Assembly: GCA_032027165.1 (NCBI GenBank)
Contig: JAVSMO010000001.1
Location: 2,100,181 to 2,164,180, forward strand
Direction: 5' to 3'
Source of the DNA: Denitratisoma sp.
GTDB lineage: Bacteria > Pseudomonadota > Gammaproteobacteria > Burkholderiales > Rhodocyclaceae
DNA: 64,000 nucleotides
This document shows positions 9,349 to 33,905 of this stretch, in pieces. Each line of letters begins with the position of its first letter. Within the stretch, counting starts at the first letter, position 1. Made by a program: the position numbers and the translations under genes. A model generated the notes under the pieces. The model did not search any database. It had not been told where the DNA came from and worked only from the letters and a program-made list of their open reading frames with translations.

Positions 9349-9912
9349 TCAGGAAGGACGCGAGCCGGTCGGAAAGGGCCAGGCAGCTGCCGGGTTGAGC
9401 GACGACTTCAGGCCGGGGGCTGCAGCAGTTGAAGGCGCAGCAGCGGCTGGTGCGGGGGCTGCTGCCGGCTTCGCAGCGGGCTTCGCAGCTTTCTTTGCCG
9501 CAGGCTTCTTTTTAGCCGCTTTCTTTGCCGCAGGTTTTTTGGCAGCTTTCTTTGCCGCAGGCTTTTTCTTAGCCGCTTTTTTTGCCGCAGGCTTTTTCTT
9601 AGCCGCTTTTTTTGCCGCAGGCTTTTTCTTGGCCGCTTTTTTTGCCGCAGGCTTTTTCTTTGCGACTTTCTTCGCAACCTTCTTCGCCGCCGGCTTCTTC
9701 TTTGCCGCCGGCTTCTTGGCGGCCTTCTTCGCCGCCGGCTTCTTGGCAGCGGCCTTCTTCGCCGCCGGTTTCTTGGCAGCGGCCTTCTTCACTGCCGGCT
9801 TCTTGGCAGCGGCCTTCTTCGCCGCCGGCTTCTTGGCAGCGGCTTTCTTCACCGCCGGTTTCTTGGCGGCGGGCTTCTTGGCTTTAGAAGCGGGTTTCTT
9901 AGCAGTAGCCAT
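9349..9912 (-). CDS. Histone H1-like alanine/lysine/proline-rich DNA-binding protein
   Basis: This 187-residue protein is almost entirely KPAAKKAA-type repeats, with a less repetitive C-terminal tail (about 150-187) ending LNPAAAWPFPTGSRPS. The composition is that of eukaryotic histone H1 tails and of bacterial AlgP/BpH1-type proteins, which bind DNA without sequence preference and affect nucleoid state. AGGAGG lies six bases before the ATG at 9912. The gene is built of two blocks of 30-base tandem repeats with different codon choice (AAA-rich near the 3' end, AAG-rich near the 5' end). A short copy of its first 32 bases is found at 58916-58947. Confidence 0.85.
   Translation of the reverse strand: MATAKKPASKAKKPAAKKPAVKKAAAKKPAAKKAAAKKPAVKKAAAKKPAAKKAAAKKPAAKKAAKKPAAKKKPAAKKVAKKVAKKKPAAKKAAKKKPAAKKAAKKKPAAKKAAKKKPAAKKAAKKPAAKKAAKKKPAAKKAAKPAAKPAAAPAPAAAAPSTAAAPGLKSSLNPAAAWPFPTGSRPS
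9551..9660 (-). repeat. 30-base tandem repeats, AAA-rich block of the H1-like gene
   Basis: Three full 30-base units (9551-9580, 9581-9610, 9611-9640) plus a 20-base partial unit differ by at most one base. Each encodes KKKPAAKKAA and carries runs of seven A on the coding strand, which are slippage-prone. Confidence 0.85.
9721..9870 (-). repeat. 30-base tandem repeats, AAG-rich block of the H1-like gene
   Basis: Five consecutive 30-base units (9721-9750 to 9841-9870) differ by a few bases each and encode AAKKPAAKKA-type decapeptides with mostly AAG and GCC codons. Confidence 0.85.
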
Positions 9913-11051: not shown

Positions 11052-12420
11052 TCAACCCGAGCCGCTCCATCCGGTAACGCAGGGAACGGAAAGTGACGCC
11101 GAGCAGCTTGGCAGCCGCCGTCCGGTTGAAGCGCGTTTTCTGCAGGGCATCCAGGATCGCCTGTTTCTCGACCCGGTCGAGATGATCCTGGAGCGAGGTG
11201 TCTCCCTTTCCCTCCTGCGAAAGTGGGGGCGCATCCGGTTCCGCCTGTGGAGCCAAATGCAGATCCTCAACTCCAATTTCGCTGCCCCCCATCAAGGCCA
11301 GGGTGCGCTCCAGGATATTCTCCAATTCGCGCACATTGCCCGGAAACGGGTATTCACCCAGAGCCTTGATCGCCTTCTGGCTCAGGCGCGGCATTGGCAT
11401 GCCGGCCTCGCGCGCCAAGCGAGCCAGAATGCTCTCAGCCAGGAGAGGAATGTCCTCGCGGCATTCGCGCAGGGCCGGCATCTTCAGTTCGATCACGTCC
11501 AGCCTATAGAACAGATCCTGGCGAAAACGGGCTGCGGCCACCAGTTGCTTCAGGTTCTGGTGGGTGGCGCTGATGATGCGGACGTCCACGGGATCCTCGG
11601 CTGGAGCGCCAACCTTGCGTACGCGCTTCTCCTGTATGGCGCGCAGCAGCTTGACCTGCATGGTCAGCGGCAAATCGGCCACTTCATCAAGAAACAGGGT
11701 GCCGCCGTGCGCTGCCTGGAAAAAGCCATCACGATCGGCATCGGCTCCAGTGAATGCGCCCTTCTTGTAACCGAAGAACTCGCTTTCCATCAAGTTCTCC
11801 GGGATGGCACCGCAATTGACAGCTATGAAGGGCTGTCCCCGCCGGGCCCCTTGCTCATGGATGAGCCGCGCAGCCAATTCCTTGCCGCTGCCGGATTCGC
11901 CGCTGATATAGACCGGGGCCTGGCTACGCGCAACCTTGCCTATCATGGTACGGGCTTGGCAAATCGCCTGGGATTCGCCGAGCAGCGCCTGCCCCGTCAC
12001 TTCGGGCCGGCTCGCGTCCTGGCTCGGCAGATTGAGCACCGATTTCACGAGGGCCCGCAACTGCTCCAGCGAAACCGGTTTGGGAACGTAATCGAAAGCC
12101 CCTGCCTTCAATGCAGAAACGGCATTTTCCATGCTGCCGTGGGCGGTAATGACTGCCACCGGCAGGTCCCGGCATTGCTCTCCGATGTAGCGCACCAGTT
12201 CCAGCCCGTCGCCGTCTGGCAGACGCATATCCGTCAGGCAAAGTTGATAGGCATTTTCGGCCAGAAACCGGCGTGCCTCCGCCACGTTCGCCGCACAGTC
12301 CGCATACAAGCCCATGCGCGACAGCGTCATGTCGAGCAACTCGCGGATGTCGTCCTCGTCGTCAACGACAAGAACCCGACCTACCCCAGATGCTGTCCTG
12401 CGATCCTGTTTTCCCGCCAC
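11044..12420 (-). CDS. pilR: Sigma-54-dependent response regulator PilR
   Basis: This 458-residue NtrC-type regulator has a receiver domain (about 14-130; acidic pocket Asp20/Asp21, phospho-acceptor Asp64, Lys114), a sigma-54 AAA+ domain (about 145-380; Walker A GESGSGKE at 174-181, GAFTGA loop at 221-226) and a Fis-type helix-turn-helix at the C-terminus (NRTAAAKLLGVTFRSLRYRM). The PilR call rests on pairing with a six-helix PilS kinase; PilR normally activates pilA. I prefer the GTG at 12420, with GGGAG nine bases upstream and a 40-base overlap with pilS. An ATG at 12474 would add 18 residues. Confidence 0.85.
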   Translation of the reverse strand: MAGKQDRRTASGVGRVLVVDDEDDIRELLDMTLSRMGLYADCAANVAEARRFLAENAYQLCLTDMRLPDGDGLELVRYIGEQCRDLPVAVITAHGSMENAVSALKAGAFDYVPKPVSLEQLRALVKSVLNLPSQDASRPEVTGQALLGESQAICQARTMIGKVARSQAPVYISGESGSGKELAARLIHEQGARRGQPFIAVNCGAIPENLMESEFFGYKKGAFTGADADRDGFFQAAHGGTLFLDEVADLPLTMQVKLLRAIQEKRVRKVGAPAEDPVDVRIISATHQNLKQLVAAARFRQDLFYRLDVIELKMPALRECREDIPLLAESILARLAREAGMPMPRLSQKAIKALGEYPFPGNVRELENILERTLALMGGSEIGVEDLHLAPQAEPDAPPLSQEGKGDTSLQDHLDRVEKQAILDALQKTRFNRTAAAKLLGVTFRSLRYRMERLGLNE

Positions 12421-14003
12421 TGCTGGTTTCTCCCGATAATCCGGAAATGCGCGCCAGGCTCGTTGCCGACCCATTCGAGGACCGCATCATTCGCCTCGCA
12501 CAGCTCTCGGGCTATATACAGTCCGAGCCCGGTTCCCTTGCTATGGGTAGTGAAAAAGGGCTCAAATATCTTGCTGCGCGCCTCCTCGCCCACCCCGGTC
12601 CCATCGTCAATGATATGCAATTCGACGCGCTCCGAGGCGGGTAACTCGAGTGCCTCGATTTTCACTGCCCCTGGCCTGCCGCTGCAATAACGTTGTGCAT
12701 TTGACAGCAGATTCCAGAGCACCTGGTTGAGGTGGGCACGGTCAAAGAGAAGCGTCGCATCGGCTCCCGTCTTCAACGCAAAAAGAGGCCTGTCGATCTG
12801 CTCGTGCATGGCCATTTCATCCAGAAAGCTTTCCAGAAAGCCGGCCAGCCGTATCGGCTCAGGCGAGGCCCGGTCGCGCCGCCCCAATTCCAGCACGTCG
12901 CGCACCAGTCGCTCCAGGCGCAGCGCATTGTCGTTAATGATGCGCGACAGTCGCTCATACCCCTCCGCCCGTTTCTCCTCCCGCAGCAACTCGGCAGCGT
13001 GGCTAATGGCAGAAAGCGGATTGCGAATTTCATGGGCGATGTTCGCCGTCAGCCTGCCAAGCGCGGCCAGCTTGATTTGCTGAGCTTGTTGCTGGATGCG
13101 GCCCATGTCCTCGATATAGATGAGGACGTCGCCGCTTTCGCCGGCGCTAAGAAGGCGCACGCGCAGCAACGCCCCGCTGCCCGGCACGCGCAGCGACGCC
13201 ACCCGCTCCTTCGAGTCATTCTTGAAGCTGCGGTATTCGCCGGCAAGCACAACCGAGAAGGAGGCCAGGTCCGGATGGGACGGGGGATGCACCCCAAGCA
13301 GTACTTCTGCCTGCGGATTCCACTGCCGCACTCTCTCACTGGAATCCACGACCATCACCCCATCCTGCATGTCGCGGATGACTCGCTCGCTGACCGACAG
13401 CTGATTGGCCAGATCAATGCCGCGCTGGCGTGCCAGTTCCTCATTGGCAATGACACGCTTGGCGAGGAGCCTGGCGGAAATCGCCGTGGCAAAGAAGCCT
13501 GTGCAAAGGATGCCGGTCTGGACGAAGTCGGCCAGGTCGGCGCCAGACTCGAGCACGCGGGCGCCCTGCTCGAACAGCACTGCAACGGTAGCAAGGGCCG
13601 CATAAAACAAGGTCAGCCGACCTTGGCCGACCAAACCTGCCCCCGCCAGCACGACCAGCAACATGACGGCCACGCCGCTTTTCTCGCCGCCGCTCGCGTA
13701 CATCATCAGGGTGATCGCGAGGATGTCGACCGACACCTGAAGCGTAAGGAGCTTGTTGAATCCGAAACGCAGCTGCTTCAGTGCCCCATAGAAAAAGATC
13801 GCCAACAGCCAGTAGGCCAGGCAGGTCCACACGAACAGCATCAGGTTCTGCGAACCGAGGCCGCTCGTCCTCGGGTAGAAAGCGACGGCGAGCATGAACA
13901 CGCTCGCCACGATCAGGCGATAGATATTGAAATAGTGGAGCGATGTCCAGACCGAAACGGGGCGGCCGGCCGTATAGGGTATGCCAGAACGGCCTTCAGT
14001 CAT
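12381..14003 (-). CDS. pilS: Membrane sensor histidine kinase PilS
   Basis: This 540-residue kinase has six hydrophobic helices in the first ~190 residues, a PAS-like segment, a HisKA domain with phospho-acceptor His324 (NIAHEIRNPLSA) and a HATPase domain (DDGTGVG, KGTGLGLYIARE). It phosphorylates the adjacent PilR. In PilS of other bacteria the membrane helices sense pilin level. The ATG at 14003 overlaps the preceding small gene's stop (ATGACTGA), which suggests translational coupling. The open frame extends to 14087 without support. Confidence 0.87.
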   Translation of the reverse strand: MTEGRSGIPYTAGRPVSVWTSLHYFNIYRLIVASVFMLAVAFYPRTSGLGSQNLMLFVWTCLAYWLLAIFFYGALKQLRFGFNKLLTLQVSVDILAITLMMYASGGEKSGVAVMLLVVLAGAGLVGQGRLTLFYAALATVAVLFEQGARVLESGADLADFVQTGILCTGFFATAISARLLAKRVIANEELARQRGIDLANQLSVSERVIRDMQDGVMVVDSSERVRQWNPQAEVLLGVHPPSHPDLASFSVVLAGEYRSFKNDSKERVASLRVPGSGALLRVRLLSAGESGDVLIYIEDMGRIQQQAQQIKLAALGRLTANIAHEIRNPLSAISHAAELLREEKRAEGYERLSRIINDNALRLERLVRDVLELGRRDRASPEPIRLAGFLESFLDEMAMHEQIDRPLFALKTGADATLLFDRAHLNQVLWNLLSNAQRYCSGRPGAVKIEALELPASERVELHIIDDGTGVGEEARSKIFEPFFTTHSKGTGLGLYIARELCEANDAVLEWVGNEPGAHFRIIGRNQQWRENRIAGQHLG

Positions 14004-26294: not shown

Positions 26295-27170
26295 TCAGTA
26301 GGGTCCGGCCAATTCCCGCAGGCGCGAATCATTCGGCCGCTCAGTAGCGGCGTGGCGCCAGTACTTGCGTGCCTCGTCGCGCAGTTCCTTTTGTTCGAGC
26401 CAGGCTGCATAGATGACCTGTTCGGAGAGCGTCGCTCCCACCCCGGGCCGCAGGTTTTCGGCATCCGCTCTCAATTCCAGGCTGGCCAACGTAAATTGAG
26501 CCGAGTTGCTGATGGATTGACCATTGGCCGCCTTGCCCGTGACCAGCCAGCGATAGCGGATACCGGATTTCAAGCGCACATTTCCGGGCAATACAAAGGA
26601 TTCACCACCCACTTCGCGTTCTAGCAGACGCTTTCCCTTGTCGTCGAACAGTTCGAAGCGCACCAGCGTGCCGGCATGCACCCCCTTCCAGCGAAACTCG
26701 GGCCACTCATCCAGCGTCACCGTATCGGCCAGCGTAAGCAGGCGCAGCTTAGCCTGATCCTGCATGCTGCGCATCAGCACCGCCCCCTGATTGATATTGA
26801 TCGGGCTGATGCGAATGGCCTTGCCTCCTCCGAAGCGCGTACTGCGCCGCTCGGGCTGCTCGCCGGAAAGCGCCACGGCCTGGGCGGCACGAATGTGCAC
26901 CAGCGACGGCCCGCGGAAATCAAACTCCTCCCCGGTCTTGAGGAAGACCAGCACCATGCGCGCCCCCGCATCGAGCTTGATACGCTGGTCGGTAGTGATT
27001 TCGTCGAGAATCGATGCGGTTCGCTTTTCGGTAACGAGGGAAGCCTCGCCCACGAGATCGGTGATCATCGCAACCGCGGATGTGGCTGTCTTCGCCGGTT
27101 GCGCGTGAGCAGGCAGCGCACTCGCTACACATGCCAGCAAGACAGCAGCGGCACGAAGTGTCTTCAACAT
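26295..27170 (-). CDS. Exported FecR-like domain protein
   Basis: This 291-residue protein has a signal peptide (MLKTLRAAAVLLACVASALPAHAQ) and a FecR-type domain (about 30-130: TSAVAMITDLVGEASLV, DEITTDQRIKLDAGARMVLVFLKTGEEFDF). Its C-terminal half contains beta-rich WPEFRWKGV and a helical AWLEQKELRDEARKYWRHA end that looks like a TPR. It lies 33 bases after the CHASE2 cyclase on the same strand; FecR and CHASE2 proteins often occur together. It may deliver a periplasmic signal to the cyclase. GGGAG precedes the ATG. Confidence 0.75.
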   Translation of the reverse strand: MLKTLRAAAVLLACVASALPAHAQPAKTATSAVAMITDLVGEASLVTEKRTASILDEITTDQRIKLDAGARMVLVFLKTGEEFDFRGPSLVHIRAAQAVALSGEQPERRSTRFGGGKAIRISPININQGAVLMRSMQDQAKLRLLTLADTVTLDEWPEFRWKGVHAGTLVRFELFDDKGKRLLEREVGGESFVLPGNVRLKSGIRYRWLVTGKAANGQSISNSAQFTLASLELRADAENLRPGVGATLSEQVIYAAWLEQKELRDEARKYWRHAATERPNDSRLRELAGPY

Positions 27171-27203
27171 CTGGATCTCCCTTCCTGTCTAGGTCTTGGA
27201 TTG

Positions 27204-28973
27204 CTAGCCGGAGGACCGCCCCGCCTGCGCCGGCCAGCCATAGACTACCACCGGGGTATGTCCCTTCACCGGCTTTGCCCCCAGATTAACGAATCCCTCG
27301 GAGGAATCAAGCGCCTGCACCACGAACCCCGAACACACCAGCGGATAGCCTACTTCCTTGGTCAGGCTCTCGATTCGGGAGGCCAAGTTCACAGTATCGC
27401 CGATGGCGGTGTATTCGTGTCGCGCCGTCGAACCGACATGACCGACCACGGCATCGCCCGTATGCAATCCGATGCCGATGCGGATCGGCTTCTGTCCCTC
27501 CAGCATCAGCGACTCGTTCAGGCGAGCGAGTCGATTAAGCATTTCCTGCGCGGCCGCGACAGCCGCCGCAGAGGGATTCGGGAGGGACTTGGGCGCGCCA
27601 AAAAACGCCATGATGCCGTCCCCGATAAACTTATCCACCGTGCCTTCATGCTTGTGGATGGCGCCAGTGACTTCCTCGAAATAGCGGTTGAGCAGAGTAA
27701 TCACCGCTTCCGGCGAGAGTGTCTCGCTGCGGGTAGTGAAATCGCGAATATCCGCGAACAGCACGCACAGCCCGCGTCGATCGCCGCCGAGGCTACCGGA
27801 AAGACGCCCGCCAACGATTTCGTCCATGATCTGCGGACTGACGTAAGCGCCAAAGGCCCGACGCAGCCGCAGCCGCTCGAGTGCATTCGCCGCCTGATCC
27901 GCCAGGGACCGGCCGATCAGGGCCAAGGACGCTGTGGCGAGCAGGCCACTCACTGGAAGGAAGTATCCCAGGCGTTGCAGTACCGTGGCGCCTGCAAACA
28001 CTGCGGAAACCAACCCGGCTGTGACGAGGAGCGCCTGCAAGGGCTTGAGCGGCCACAGCCAAAACAAGGCGGCCAGCAGTGCCAGAAACGACGCCAGAAA
28101 TGCCGGCAAGGGTTGAATCAGGGTGCCGCCCAGGATCGAGCGCAAAACCTGGGCGTGCACCAGCACCCCCGGCACGCGTCGATTGCCCGGATCATTCCAT
28201 TTGAAAAGTTCCACCGGCTGCAGCTGTCTGTCCTCGAAGAGCGTGACACTGCCAATCAGCACCGGCTTACCAGCAAAGCTGCGTGCCAGTCTGTCGCTGT
28301 CTCCGGCCTCGATCCAGTCGAGCACCTCATGGAAGGGATGGTAGTCGAATGCTTCGCCACGGCTGAAATCGATCAATCCCCGCTTGGGCTCCACCTTCAT
28401 GAGACGGGCCATCTGTCCCGATAGCGTGGCGACGGCGTGCCCCTCGACATCCAGCGCCTCGTCGAACCAGCGCACCGAGCCGTCTGCATCAAGCCGCCAG
28501 AGCGCATAGCCGGCGCCTTCCTTTCCGGCAGCGGACAAAAATGGCGGGTAGATGGGGCGCGTTGCACCTGTCGGCCCTATGGTCAGCCCGAACACAAGGG
28601 GGACCTGCCGACGGGCGTCGATGATGCCGCCAAGCAACTGACGGTCATAACCCGGAACGATGGTATTGAAGGAACGATCGGGCAGGATGATATCGACGCC
28701 CACTACGGCCGGGCGGGCGTTGGCCACGCCCCGGAGCAGCTTGCCGAGATGAGGGTGCCAAAGGGCGAGGGGTTCCGGCATCCGGGCAACGGTGGCTTCG
28801 TCGATGCCGATCACGACCACTTCCGGCGCGCCTGCCGGAAAATAATTCCTCAATAAACGGAATTGCTGGTCGATGATTTTGAGATCGGCAAGGGCGAATA
28901 GCCCGGACATGGACTGTAGTACGGCAAACAGAGCGATTGCGCCCAGCCCATACCACTTCCACTTCGGCGGCAT
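27204..28973 (-). CDS. CHASE2-domain adenylate/guanylate cyclase
   Basis: This protein of about 589 residues has an N-terminal membrane helix (10-28), a periplasmic CHASE2 sensor (about 30-310; VVVIGIDEATVARMPEP, VVGVDIILPDRSF), three more helices (about 320-390) and a class III cyclase domain (about 400-575). The metal aspartates are in LFADIRDFTTR, with GDGIMAFFG and GDTVNLASRIE also present. It should make cAMP or cGMP in the cytoplasm in response to a periplasmic cue. The start is uncertain: ATG 28973 places the first helix as in the family, while ATG 29105 adds 44 unlike residues and leaves only 32 bases to the divergent caspase gene. Confidence 0.85.
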   Translation of the reverse strand: MPPKWKWYGLGAIALFAVLQSMSGLFALADLKIIDQQFRLLRNYFPAGAPEVVVIGIDEATVARMPEPLALWHPHLGKLLRGVANARPAVVGVDIILPDRSFNTIVPGYDRQLLGGIIDARRQVPLVFGLTIGPTGATRPIYPPFLSAAGKEGAGYALWRLDADGSVRWFDEALDVEGHAVATLSGQMARLMKVEPKRGLIDFSRGEAFDYHPFHEVLDWIEAGDSDRLARSFAGKPVLIGSVTLFEDRQLQPVELFKWNDPGNRRVPGVLVHAQVLRSILGGTLIQPLPAFLASFLALLAALFWLWPLKPLQALLVTAGLVSAVFAGATVLQRLGYFLPVSGLLATASLALIGRSLADQAANALERLRLRRAFGAYVSPQIMDEIVGGRLSGSLGGDRRGLCVLFADIRDFTTRSETLSPEAVITLLNRYFEEVTGAIHKHEGTVDKFIGDGIMAFFGAPKSLPNPSAAAVAAAQEMLNRLARLNESLMLEGQKPIRIGIGLHTGDAVVGHVGSTARHEYTAIGDTVNLASRIESLTKEVGYPLVCSGFVVQALDSSEGFVNLGAKPVKGHTPVVVYGWPAQAGRSSG

Positions 28974-29137
28974 CGGATTGGCGTGCGCGGATTGGCCGTT
29001 GGGGGAAACGTCGTTTCCGGATTGTGTGAAGTGTGAATTATTCAGGAACACCTCCGGGAAACGTGAGCCATTGCACGCATCAACCGGTACGTTTTGTGGC
29101 ATCATAAACCAGCATTCAGGATAGGGGTTCAAATCAG

Positions 29138-31447
29138 ATGGCATTCCTCCGTTCAGCCTTGCTGGCCTTCTTTTGCATGGCCGCGGCATTGGCCGGCCTG
29201 ACGCCGGCATTCGCCCAGCGGAACGCCCCCGAAAACCTGAAGCGCGTGGCGCTTGTCATCGGCAATGGCGCCTACCCGGCTACGCCGCTGAAGAACCCGG
29301 TGAATGACGCTCGCGCCATTTCCCGGGCGCTCAAGGATCTCGGCTTCGACGTCACTCACCGCGAGAACCTGACGCAGAAGGCCATGGCGGACGTCATCCG
29401 CCAATTCGGCGCCCGCCTGACGCCGGGCACGGCTGCCGTCTTCTATTATGCCGGCCATGGCATGCAGGTGCAGGGGCGCAATTTCCTCATCCCGGTGGAC
29501 GCTGACGTGCAGGCAGAGGATGAAGTGCCCTACTCCACCATCGATGTCGGCCTGTTGCTGGGCAAGATGGAGCAGGCCAGAAGTCCGGCCAACATCGTCA
29601 TCCTCGACGCCTGCCGCGACAACCCCTTCGCACGCCGCTTCCGTCCCGCCAATACGGGCCTCGCGCAGATGGATGCACCCATCGGCACCCTGCTGGCCTA
29701 TGCCACCGCACCGGGCTCGGTTGCCCGCGATGGCGGCGGTGAAAACGGCGTCTATACCAAGCACCTGGTCGCCAACCTCAACACCGAAGGCCTCGCGGTG
29801 GAGCAGTTGTTCAAGCGCGTGCGCGTCGCTGTCGCCCAGGAAACGCGGGAAACCCAGGTTCCCTGGGAAAGCTCATCCTTGAAAGGGGAGTTCGTCTTCA
29901 AGGAAGCGCCTCGAAGCAAAGCCACCGCTTCACAGGACCAGATGATCGAGGAGGCCGTGCGTGCGGCAGCCGAGCGTGCGGCAGCCCTCACCGCCGAACG
30001 CATGGCACGCGAGCAGGCAAGCCGCCAGCCGGCACCGCAGCAGGACTCCCAAGTGGCACGCCAGGAAACGGAGCGCCTGGCGGCCGAGCGCGAGGCCTTG
30101 CGTCAGGAGCGCAGGAGCTTTGAGGCCGAGCGCGCAGCACAGCGCAGCGAAGCTGCCCGTGCCGATAACGGAAAGAAAGCGCCCCCGCCTGCGAAGGCGG
30201 CAGCAATCCGGCCACGGCCGGCGCCACAACCCGCCGCGGCGCCCCTGCGGGCCGGCGGCGCCAACCCCGAAGTGGGCGACAGCTGGACCTACCGCTATAC
30301 CGACGGCTACACCAAATCCGGCACCTTCACTGTGCGGATCACCGGCATCTCCGGCGAGGAGATCACGGACGAGGCGCGCATGGGCAACAACCGCCATATC
30401 GGCATCTTCACCCCCGGCCTGGCACTTTCCGGCCGCAGCTTCGGTGACACCAACGTGCGCGAAATCTCGCCCTACCTGCAAAGCCTCGGGCCCAACGAGC
30501 CGACGGCCGAATGGCGCAGCGTGAACATCATCACCGGGGAACAGCCCTTCACGGCCCACCTCGCCGGCACCGAGAGGGTCACGGTACCGGCCGGCACCTT
30601 CGAAGCGCGAAAAATCGTCATCGAGGGGACACAAGTATTGCGCGCCGCCTATGGCAACCCCTCGCGCACCTATACCGTCACTGCCTGGTACGCGCCCGCC
30701 GCCAAGCGCTTCGTCAAGCTGACCTTCTTTGCACCTTCCGCCGCCTATCCGGCCGAACAGGACACGATCGAACTGGTGGAAACCAACTTTGCCATGAACA
30801 TGGCCGCCGCACCCCAGCCGGTCCCTGCCGCCAAGCCGGCCGAGCCGCCGCGCACCGCATTCTTCGGCAGACCAGCAGCCGGGGGCAGCGGCGGGTCGCT
30901 GGACAAGGCCGGCCTGCCCAAGCCAGGCGACAACTGGACCTACCGCTATTCAGACGGTTACGGGAAAGCCGGCACCTTCACTGTGCGTGTCACCGGTGCC
31001 TCGGGCGAGGAAATTTCCGACGAGGCACGCATGGGCAACAACCGCCATGTCGGGAACTTCGCCCCCGGCGTGGCGCTGTCCGGCCGCAGCTTCGGTGGCA
31101 CCACGGTGCGCGAGATCTCGCCCTACCTGCAGAGCCTCGGACCTAACGAGCCGACGGCCGAATGGCGCAACATCAGCATTCTGACCGGCGAACAGCCCTT
31201 CGCGGCCCACCTCGCCGGCAGCGAGACGGTCACGGTGCCGGCCGGTACCTTCGAGACGCGGAAACTCGTCATCCAAGGCACGCAAGTGATGCGCGCCGCC
31301 TACGGCAACCCCTCGCGCACCTTTACCGTCACCGTCTGGTACGCACCGGCCGTTAAGCGCTTCGTCAAGCTGACCTTTTATGCCCCCCACGCCGCTTATC
31401 CAGCCGAACAGGACACGGTAGAACTGGTGGAATTCAAGGTGGATTGA
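29138..31447 (+). CDS. Exported caspase-family protein (peptidase C14) with coiled coil and two repeat domains
   Basis: This 769-residue protein has a signal peptide (to about residue 26, AFA-QRN) and a caspase domain (33-260) with catalytic His107 (YYAGHGMQ) and Cys159 (ILDACRDNPF). A charged Ala/Glu/Arg coiled coil (about 270-345) and a Pro-rich linker follow, then two copies of a ~175-residue domain (about 376-548 and 592-769) that begin GDxWTYRYxDGY and include REISPYLQSLGPNEPTAEW and VTVPAGTFE. The repeat domain is not one I can name. Its paralogue lies downstream and the divergent cyclase upstream. The signal peptide implies periplasmic or surface action. Good ribosome-binding site GGGG before ATG. 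Confidence 0.85.
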   Translation: MAFLRSALLAFFCMAAALAGLTPAFAQRNAPENLKRVALVIGNGAYPATPLKNPVNDARAISRALKDLGFDVTHRENLTQKAMADVIRQFGARLTPGTAAVFYYAGHGMQVQGRNFLIPVDADVQAEDEVPYSTIDVGLLLGKMEQARSPANIVILDACRDNPFARRFRPANTGLAQMDAPIGTLLAYATAPGSVARDGGGENGVYTKHLVANLNTEGLAVEQLFKRVRVAVAQETRETQVPWESSSLKGEFVFKEAPRSKATASQDQMIEEAVRAAAERAAALTAERMAREQASRQPAPQQDSQVARQETERLAAEREALRQERRSFEAERAAQRSEAARADNGKKAPPPAKAAAIRPRPAPQPAAAPLRAGGANPEVGDSWTYRYTDGYTKSGTFTVRITGISGEEITDEARMGNNRHIGIFTPGLALSGRSFGDTNVREISPYLQSLGPNEPTAEWRSVNIITGEQPFTAHLAGTERVTVPAGTFEARKIVIEGTQVLRAAYGNPSRTYTVTAWYAPAAKRFVKLTFFAPSAAYPAEQDTIELVETNFAMNMAAAPQPVPAAKPAEPPRTAFFGRPAAGGSGGSLDKAGLPKPGDNWTYRYSDGYGKAGTFTVRVTGASGEEISDEARMGNNRHVGNFAPGVALSGRSFGGTTVREISPYLQSLGPNEPTAEWRNISILTGEQPFAAHLAGSETVTVPAGTFETRKLVIQGTQVMRAAYGNPSRTFTVTVWYAPAVKRFVKLTFYAPHAAYPAEQDTVELVEFKVD

Positions 31448-31467
31448 TATCGACTTCGGGAGATCCT

Positions 31468-31648
31468 ATGTCCATTCGCCCTGTACAGGATCTTGTTGCC
31501 GGGACTGCTGGCCCTGACGACGATTCAGGTTGCAACATATGGTTCGGAGCACGCGGAAATCGCCGGCAAGGCGAGCCTAAGCAAGTTCATGCACGCTGTC
31601 ATCTTCTGCCCCTTCGCCGGCCACACCGAGTTGTGGAATATCGTCTGA
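31468..31648 (+). pseudogene. Frameshifted small exported protein between the two caspase genes
   Basis: An ATG at 31468 has GGGAG six bases upstream and starts MSIRP. In the next frame, from about 31479, runs LYRILLPGLLALTTIQVA, a plausible signal peptide core, followed by TYGSEHAEIAGKASLSKFMH and AVIFCPFAGHTELWNIV, ending TGA at 31646-31648. Dropping one C in the CCC at 31478-31480 would join the two into a ~59-residue exported protein. The intact ATG frame (62 residues to 31653) is Arg-rich and not protein-like. It is either a recent frameshift or a sequencing error. Family unknown. Confidence 0.45.
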
Positions 31649-31658
31649 CCTGACCTGC

Positions 31659-33905
31659 ATGCGAGGGGCCGCCATGCCGCCGTTCGTAGCCTTCGCAAAC
31701 ATACTGTGCGCCGCCTTCGCCCTGATGGCGGCGCTGCTGCTTTCGGGGCCGGCCGAGGCGGCAACGTTTTCCGGCAAGCGCATCGCCCTGGTAATCGGCA
31801 ACGGGAAATATCCCACTGCGCCCCTGAAGAACCCGGTCAACGACGCACGCGCCATGGCGAAGAGCCTCAAGGAACTCGGCTTCGAGGTGACCTTGCGGGA
31901 AAATTCGAGCCAGCGCGACCTGGCTGCGGCGGTCCGACAGTTCGGCTCCTCCATCACCCCCGGCTCGACCGCCGTGTTCTACTTCGCCGGCCACGGCATG
32001 CAGGTGAAAGGCCGCAACTACCTGGTGCCGACCGACGCCGACATCCAACTCGAGGACGAAGTGCCCTACTCGACCATCGACGTCAGCCTGGTGCTGGACA
32101 AGATGGAAGTCGGCAAGAGCGCCGTCAACATCGTGATTCTCGACGCCTGCCGCAACAACCCCTTTGCGCGCCGCTTCCGCTCCTCCGGCACTGGCCTCGC
32201 CCAGATGGATGCCCCCATCGGCACTCTGATCGCCTTCGCAACTGCCCCAGGCTCGGTCGCCCAGGACGGCACGGGGGAGAATGGTATCTACACCAAGCAT
32301 CTCTTGGAGAGCATCGCCATGCCCGGCCTGCCTGTCGAGCAGATGTTCAAGCGCGTGCGCGTCGGCGTGGCGAGGGACACCAACGAGGCGCAGGTCCCCT
32401 GGGAAAGTTCTTCCATGAAGGGCGATTTCGTCTTCCGCGAAGCCGCACCCCAGCAAACCGCCTCGCAGGACAAGTTGATCGAGGAGGCAGTGCGTGCAGC
32501 CGCCGAGCGCGCTGCCTCGCTCACCGCCGAGCGCATGGCGCGCGAGCAGGCGGAGCGCCAGCCCAGGAACGACCAGGCCAGAGCCGAGCAGGAGGCGCTC
32601 TTCGCCGAGCGAGAAAGGCTGCTGCGCGAGCGCGAGCGCCTAGCTGCGGAAAACGAGGCGCTCCGCCGCCAGGCTGCTCAGGCGCCTGCACCGGTTGCGC
32701 TCACTGCACCGACACCGGCTGTGCAATGGCCCGCAAACGCTCCGAAAACAGCTCCAGGCAACCGCCCCACCGTGGGCGACCGCTGGACCTACCGCTACTC
32801 GGACGGCTACGAAAAGAAGGGCACCTTTACGGTGAGAATAACCACCGCCACCGATTCCTCCATCACCGATGAAGTGGTCATCGGCCGATCAAGACTGAGT
32901 GCCAGCTTCGAACCCGGAATGGAATGGGCGTCCCGCAATCTGGACGGCTATTCCCTGCGAGAAATCTCACCCTACCTGCTGAGCCTCGGGCCCGCAGAGC
33001 CAACGGAGGCCTGGAGCAACATCTCCTTGGGCGGAAACGCTTTCACAGCCCGGCCGGCTGGAACGGAAAGCATCACGGTGCCCGCCGGCAGCTTCGAGGC
33101 ACGCAAAATCGTGCTGAAGGGGGAGCAGGTATACCTTGGTTCGAGAACCCGCCCCCTGACAATTACGATCTGGTATTCCCCTTCCGTCAAGCGCTATGTC
33201 AAGATGAGCTTTCATTCGGAAGACAAGTGGGGCGGAGGCGGGGATCGCGACGAAATCGTGCTGATTGAAACCGGCTTTCCCGTGAGTGCGGGCATGTCAT
33301 CCGCCGTGTCCGGGACAGCAGGTAAGTCTGCAACCGCGTTTGCCAGCTTGGCCCCCACAGGCGGGAGCACCGCTGCCGCTGGTTTTCCCAAGGTTGGCGA
33401 CACATGGACCTACCGCTTCTCGGATATCTACGGCAAGTCGGAAACCTACACGGTGCAGGTCACCGCCGCATCCACCGGCGAGATCACGGATGAAGCACGC
33501 TTGGGCAAAGCGCGCCATGCTGCGTCCTTCGAGCCCGGACTGGAACTTGCCGACCGCAAGCTGGGGAATCTTGCTCTTCGCGAAGTCTCGCCCTATTTGC
33601 TGAGCCACGGGCCCTTGCGAGACAAGCCGGAATGGAAATCATTGAAGATTTTTGACAGCAGCCCGCCATTCACGGCCAAGCTCGCCGGCAAGGAAACGAT
33701 CACTGTGCCGGCCGGCAGCTTCGAGGCAGAGAAATTGGTCATCGAGGGCAACCGATACCGATGGGCAAACAACCCGTCAGGCGGCTCCGATTCTTATAGT
33801 TTGACAGTCTGGTATGCCCCTATTGCCAAGCGGTACGTCAAGATCAGGATCCATGGTCGGAACGACAATGAAACCATCGAGCTTACGGGCATGAAGCTCG
33901 ATTAA
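31659..33905 (+). CDS. Exported caspase-family protein, paralogue of the upstream gene
   Basis: This 748-residue protein has the same layout as its neighbour: signal peptide (to about 35, AEA-ATF), caspase domain with His112 (YFAGHGMQ) and Cys164 (ILDACRNNPF), a coiled coil (about 270-345), and two repeat domains (about 370-550 and 577-748). The caspase part is highly similar to the upstream protein, while the repeat domains have diverged more, so this is an older tandem duplication. Both catalytic residues are kept in both copies. ATG 31674 is an alternative start. It converges with argJ, one base apart. Confidence 0.84.
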   Translation: MRGAAMPPFVAFANILCAAFALMAALLLSGPAEAATFSGKRIALVIGNGKYPTAPLKNPVNDARAMAKSLKELGFEVTLRENSSQRDLAAAVRQFGSSITPGSTAVFYFAGHGMQVKGRNYLVPTDADIQLEDEVPYSTIDVSLVLDKMEVGKSAVNIVILDACRNNPFARRFRSSGTGLAQMDAPIGTLIAFATAPGSVAQDGTGENGIYTKHLLESIAMPGLPVEQMFKRVRVGVARDTNEAQVPWESSSMKGDFVFREAAPQQTASQDKLIEEAVRAAAERAASLTAERMAREQAERQPRNDQARAEQEALFAERERLLRERERLAAENEALRRQAAQAPAPVALTAPTPAVQWPANAPKTAPGNRPTVGDRWTYRYSDGYEKKGTFTVRITTATDSSITDEVVIGRSRLSASFEPGMEWASRNLDGYSLREISPYLLSLGPAEPTEAWSNISLGGNAFTARPAGTESITVPAGSFEARKIVLKGEQVYLGSRTRPLTITIWYSPSVKRYVKMSFHSEDKWGGGGDRDEIVLIETGFPVSAGMSSAVSGTAGKSATAFASLAPTGGSTAAAGFPKVGDTWTYRFSDIYGKSETYTVQVTAASTGEITDEARLGKARHAASFEPGLELADRKLGNLALREVSPYLLSHGPLRDKPEWKSLKIFDSSPPFTAKLAGKETITVPAGSFEAEKLVIEGNRYRWANNPSGGSDSYSLTVWYAPIAKRYVKIRIHGRNDNETIELTGMKLD

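Follow-up and report, generated by a model that had tools for sequence, protein, structure and literature searches.

Four genes lie between apaG and argJ in the window—the whole stretch of 64,000 nucleotides that was analysed—as the earlier note had described, with a methyltransferase gene additionally following on the apaG side (Table 1). The genes encode an exported protein, a membrane-bound nucleotide cyclase with a CHASE2 sensor, and two caspases, the latter on the strand opposite to that of the cyclase. The cyclase gene itself is present as described, but its start is to be placed at about 28973 and not at 29210, because, upstream of this, the window and the sister species G010 differ by indels that break the reading frame. 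Hence, the divergent promoter region shrinks to about 165 bp. No CRP site near consensus was found in this shared region, and CRP-like matches are fewer in the window than in shuffles.

Table 1. Features of the four-gene locus, in window positions; domain boundaries are given in residues.
Feature	Position	Strand	Description
Methyltransferase gene	~25.67-26.29 kb	+	sits between apaG and the four-gene set
MtxA/FecR-like exported protein gene	26295..27170	-	291 aa; signal peptide; N-terminal beta domain ~30-117; Ig/FN3-like domain ~138-230; two TPR-like helix pairs ~231-288
CHASE2 receptor and class III nucleotide cyclase gene	27204..28973	-	589 aa
Divergent promoter region	28974..29137		~165 bp; conserved in part in the sister species G010
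Caspase 1 gene	29138..31447	+	769 aa; PF00656 141 bits; signal peptide; C14 paracaspase-like domain 35-252; coiled coil ~264-342; two DUF3108-like C-terminal repeats
Caspase 2 gene	31659..33905	+	748 aa; PF00656 141 bits; architecture as in caspase 1

The exported protein had been taken for a FecR-like protein. Its export stands as a prediction from the signal peptide, but its membership of the FecR family had to be rejected: the Pfam profile PF04773 gave no match in 11 close members at E 1 and one weak match only, of E 0.024, in 29 members. It is better called MtxA-like. The AlphaFold model of the protein is confident (pLDDT 89, pTM 0.83) and comprises an N-terminal beta domain, an Ig/FN3-like domain and two helical pairs. 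Its top Foldseek match is MtxA of Magnetospirillum (4z29; E 8.5e-5, TMt 0.56), and the sequence profile reaches MtxA as well, with E 1.5e-5 over residues 27-194. As generic Ig/FN3 folds dominate the VIA-align table, the weight of this assignment rests on the profile match and on the shared operon—a CHASE2 cyclase gene adjoins in the window, and in Magnetospirillum gryphiswaldense the MtxA gene shares its operon with that of a CHASE2 adenylate cyclase (PMC4439547; PDB 4z29). The DUF928 profile is touched by 7 of the 29 members, with a best E of 4e-5.

The cyclase matches both CHASE2 (PF05226, 92.5 bits) and the class III catalytic domain (PF00211, 78.9 bits) in this order. Its metal-binding pair (Asp408/Asp452), base-contacting residues (Lys448/Thr522) and transition-state residues (Asn529/Arg533) are present and conserved. 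By the established rules for class III cyclases, Lys and Thr at the base positions suggest ATP as substrate; since all three groups of residues are kept, the enzyme is predicted to be an adenylate cyclase. From the predicted topology, the CHASE2 sensor would face the periplasm and the cyclase domain the cytoplasm. An output via cAMP and Crp appears plausible, because Crp-family regulators or other cNMP-binding proteins adjoin the cyclase in related loci (L114, L142, L190, L205 and L207) and 13 cNMP-binding domains are encoded in the window's own genome. In L207, a cNMP-binding domain fused to GGDEF-EAL lies directly upstream of the CHASE2 cyclase (11935-13578), a possible link from cAMP to c-di-GMP.

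Both caspases keep their catalytic dyads exactly as the earlier note had given them—His107/Cys159 in caspase 1 and His112/Cys164 in caspase 2—and match PF00656 above the Pfam cut-off; proteolytic activity is predicted. Both proteins described there as divergent caspases are present; in fact they form a tandem pair with 57% identity. The caspase domain is closest to that of the paracaspase MALT1 (TM 0.80 over 3v4o; phmmer 1.5e-14), by which measures of sequence and modelled fold the caspases are paracaspase-like. Asp57 and Asp157 are invariant among the aligned caspases, and both align with acids of MALT1 that we take to form its S1 pocket; hence, cleavage after Arg or Lys is predicted. The AF2 model of caspase 1, with a mean pLDDT of 69, is good for the caspase domain only and leaves the C-terminal repeats uncertain. 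Clear signal peptides start both caspases, as they do the MtxA-like partner. While the caspase fold and the His-Cys dyad are shared with bacterial C14 homologues and MALT1, the caspases of the window differ from these by their predicted export, their coiled coil and DUF3108-like repeats, and their genetic tie to a cyclase.

This tie was followed across genomes in loci from a GTDB genome scan by cyclase alignment alone, together with loci picked by the exported protein. Loci were counted if each side had 3 kb of flank or more, and a caspase-superfamily gene (C14 or CHAT) was scored within 5 kb; the home-made profiles used may overlook divergent caspases and may accept weak partner matches too readily. 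Such a gene is found in 44 of 59 loci with the pair of cyclase and exported partner vs 1 of 30 related cyclase loci lacking the partner, whereby about a dozen loci (within L089-L108) owe their inclusion to a nearby caspase that was already known, and the signal stems in part from one related cyclase clade, such that Fisher values are inflated and independence is overstated. In the subset chosen by the cyclase (L109-L188), our own count from the locus lists gives 16 of 22 pair loci vs 0 of 29 without the partner. Of 45 low-scoring CHASE2 genes—of the cyclase type where checked—10 have a C14 gene at a distance of up to 6 kb, vs none of 102 high-scoring ones. Matches to the exported protein in 60 relatives nearly all adjoin a CHASE2 gene. 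As a held-out sample served 40 loci of the exported-protein family from other classes of the phylum, fetched regardless of caspases: 29 bear a cyclase, 20 a caspase-like gene and 10 both, and a single locus has neither (39/40 with at least one).

The arrangement can be as tight as in G056, where cyclase, MtxA-like and caspase genes follow each other in this order in an operon-like manner with gaps of about 15-20 bp. The scan also reached two loci with a weak partner match, one Acidobacterial (L158) and one of Desulfobulbaceae (L115). In the Gallionella-type cyclase loci (L121-L125, L153) both partners are absent. The plasmid relatives of the caspase and the cyclase that were examined do not carry the set, and no plasmid match was found for the MtxA-like protein. 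On plasmid p1 of Shinella sp. H4-D48 (L233), genes for a FecR-domain protein and a cyclase immediately precede an NHLP bacteriocin export cluster.

The proposal that these genes recur together could have failed in this neighbourhood search and did not: the grouping of MtxA-like protein, CHASE2 cyclase and caspase-superfamily protease is confirmed not to be a matter of chance. The claims of one functional set and of a cyclic nucleotide linked with proteolysis both gain support from the repeated co-location, from the held-out sample and from switching between protease types. An alternative would be that CHASE2 cyclase and MtxA-like protein form one system, next to which the caspases settled by accident; orthologues of caspase 2 and three other C14 genes of the window's own genome do sit away from any CHASE2 gene. 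This is improbable and strongly disfavoured by the recurrence of the co-location in many families, by the two protease types involved and by the held-out sample.

On the cyclase tree, C14 and CHAT swap at least five times, and the catalytic His-Cys pair is kept throughout the loci (44/44 C14 domains, 26/26 CHAT domains). The protease comes in several architectures: C14 with DUF3108-like repeats in the window and G010 and, by alignment, in L113, L117, L118 and L138; C14 with MORN repeats in G056, L135 and L196; C14 with an FGE domain in L144; and a TPR-CHAT protein in a paralogue at 2.47 Mb of the window's own genome, in G001, in Mariprofundaceae and in others. By a signal-peptide heuristic, 30 of 34 C14 and 20 of 24 CHAT proteins score positive, and most of the others are truncated, mis-started or show a leader by eye; since 39% of all larger ORFs trigger the heuristic too, export is to be read as predicted. 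The own-genome paralogue (L091; G000:C1:2473624-2476212) encodes CHASE2 cyclase, MtxA-like protein and TPR-CHAT protein in this order on one strand, among CoA-transferase, AMP-binding and transporter genes. Its counterpart in the congener G009 has kept the pair and lost the CHAT gene. As 15 of the 59 pair loci also have no recognised caspase-like gene, the protease does not seem to be needed always. A second version of the set (L100, L101, L102, L103, L104, L222 and L224) runs from a CHASE2 cyclase via a short FecR-like protein, an autotransporter-type protein and, in most loci, an alpha/beta hydrolase to a C14 caspase, with a Ser/Thr kinase adjoining in some loci.

The earlier note had regarded the locus as a foreign island, which is not borne out. 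The sister species G010 carries the MtxA-like, cyclase and caspase 1 genes in the corresponding position; of caspase 2 it keeps a 209-aa remnant (L089:4976-5605) with the signal peptide and a DUF3108-like repeat, while the caspase domain is gone. Three congeners bear a single caspase gene, orthologous to caspase 2 and without a cyclase: it is flanked by argJ and apaG in G001 and by argJ in G004, and G006 is the third. In the caspase tree, caspase 2 groups with these congener orphans and caspase 1 with its G010 counterpart (support 91); a tandem duplication of the caspases inside the genus would fit. Between the window and G010, dN/dS values of 0.10 for the MtxA-like protein, 0.11 for the cyclase and 0.17 for caspase 1 mark purifying selection. 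The genes of the set show roughly double the dS of argJ and apaG, for which codon bias or some exchange may account; the GC content of the set is ordinary.

The island claim had also drawn on a gap of about 10 kb in a dispersed motif, GCCGnnnnGnCGRGACTGACTT. The gap is real, with copies in the window at 2601, 20443, 34629, 52252, 53688 and 62399, but it is no sign of foreignness: the motif occurs in 69 exact copies (36 forward, 33 reverse; none for the reversed control) on the 3.41-Mb single contig of the genome, and at this density, with about 49 kb to each copy and other stretches of 14-18 kb in the window likewise free of it, such a gap is expected and uninformative. A foreign island is hence rejected by the synteny with G010, the resident caspase in G001 and G004, the ordinary GC content and the motif density; the locus is resident and selected, not a fresh arrival. 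A separate repeat in the window (9476-9904) consists of a 15-bp unit in 23 overlapping copies; read from the minus strand, it would encode a tail rich in lysine and alanine, like that of histone H1.

This residence also bears on the suggestion of a defence pathway, in which the cyclase would signal infection and the caspases would kill the cell in a Pycsar-like or CHAT-like manner. PADLOC models for Pycsar cyclases and for a caspase do match; these matches, however, reflect shared cyclase and caspase folds only. Pycsar pairs a cytosolic cyclase with a nucleotide-gated effector; here the cyclase is a CHASE2 membrane receptor, and no Pyc effector model matches among the four proteins. The caspases and the associated CHAT proteins carry export signals, so that a direct trigger by a cytoplasmic nucleotide is not to be expected. 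A cytoplasmic effector is absent, phage records gave no match, and the long-resident chromosomal locus is free of mobile genes in the segment read. Anti-phage defence or programmed death is thus highly improbable.

Known systems point rather to signalling. The set resembles the MtxA system in that an exported protein with Ig-like and TPR-like parts is encoded next to a CHASE2 cyclase, and differs in that PMC4439547 mentions no caspase and frames MtxA as a magnetotaxis gene. In S. meliloti, peptidic signals—one of them free ribosomal protein uL2—elicit a response from CyaK and CyaD1/CyaD2 jointly with outer-membrane NsrA, which runs via Clr (PMC7529298, PMC13001267), and CyaD1 lies near a FecR-domain gene, SMc02177, required for the same phenotype (PMC5498481). 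CHASE2 adenylate cyclases, one of them with an exported FecR-domain neighbour, are thus common to both cases, as would be the route from cAMP to a Crp-family regulator, which is proposed here and there answers a peptidic signal; in contrast, the S. meliloti partner is an outer-membrane barrel and no caspase is reported in these papers. The Burkholderia 'BiofilmReg' operon (PMC5192318) likewise pairs a CHASE2 receptor with an exported LysM-FecR partner, but has a histidine kinase output and no caspase. Cyanobacterial CHASE2-caspase fusions link CHASE2 and C14 within a single protein, for which neither a cyclase nor an MtxA-like partner is described (PMC3501461).

The best reading of the set is that of an envelope sensor, which would turn a periplasmic event—with proteolysis as its gate or its sequel—into cAMP. 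We see an about even chance that MtxA-like protein, CHASE2 cyclase and caspase 1 form, at this locus, one copy of a conserved module for envelope signalling via protease-gated cAMP synthesis, caspase 2 being a tandem paralogue. The predicted topology would bring MtxA-like protein, CHASE2 sensor and caspases together in the periplasm and leave only the cyclase domain in the cytoplasm, which upholds the claim that most of the set acts outside the inner membrane. The favoured arrangement is a sensor for an extracellular or periplasmic protein with a receptor gated by proteolysis. Hereby, the periplasmic target of the exported cysteine protease would be either an incoming protein or the receptor complex of MtxA-like protein and CHASE2 cyclase; its action there would change the CHASE2 sensor and switch on cAMP synthesis, and cAMP might then work via Crp-family regulators, in some related loci encoded beside the cyclase. 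The position of the protease upstream of the cyclase is the weakest step. Against the reading as a whole speak the pair loci free of a recognised caspase-like gene, G009 among the congeners, the placement of the window's caspases on the strand opposite to the cyclase, the congeners with a caspase 2 orthologue but no cyclase, and the missing CRP site in the shared promoter. Spelled out in full, the gated receptor would be a bacterial counterpart of protease-gated receptors: an exported paracaspase or CHAT protein would cut either the MtxA-like/CHASE2 complex itself or a basic protein that comes in or is set free by damage, and the cut would turn on cAMP synthesis. This version is rather unlikely; if it held true, protein outside the cell, such as that of lysed neighbours, would be read as a second-messenger signal.

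The main rival places the protease at the other end of the pathway: MtxA-like protein and CHASE2 would sense an envelope or extracellular signal, and cAMP-Crp would induce the caspase or CHAT protein, which processes a surface or secreted protein. Candidates for such substrates are a TPS protein in L132, L141, L145, L190 and L216 and the autotransporter of the L100-type loci; the pair also exists without a protease, and Clr of S. meliloti induces exported proteins, one with a FecR domain (PMC5498481). However, neither the window nor most caspase loci encode a secreted substrate, and the shared promoter has no CRP-like site. The protease as a cAMP-induced output is hence a tentative possibility, short of an even chance.

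In the open-access literature, no description of the three-part set of MtxA-like protein, CHASE2 cyclase and caspase was found, although an existing one may have been missed; CHASE2 together with a caspase appears there in domain lists or fusions only, and nothing was found on CHASE2 together with a CHAT domain. The set is widespread, with a co-location spanning several proteobacterial classes and beyond, and apparently undescribed. As a recurring set, it offers a concrete, testable role for bacterial caspases beyond multicellular or defence settings, in a defined pathway that can be read out as cAMP and for which residues to mutate are predicted. MtxA, an orphan magnetotaxis protein, thereby gains a place in a general signalling family, and the set may account for the sensing of protein signals by CHASE2 cyclases.
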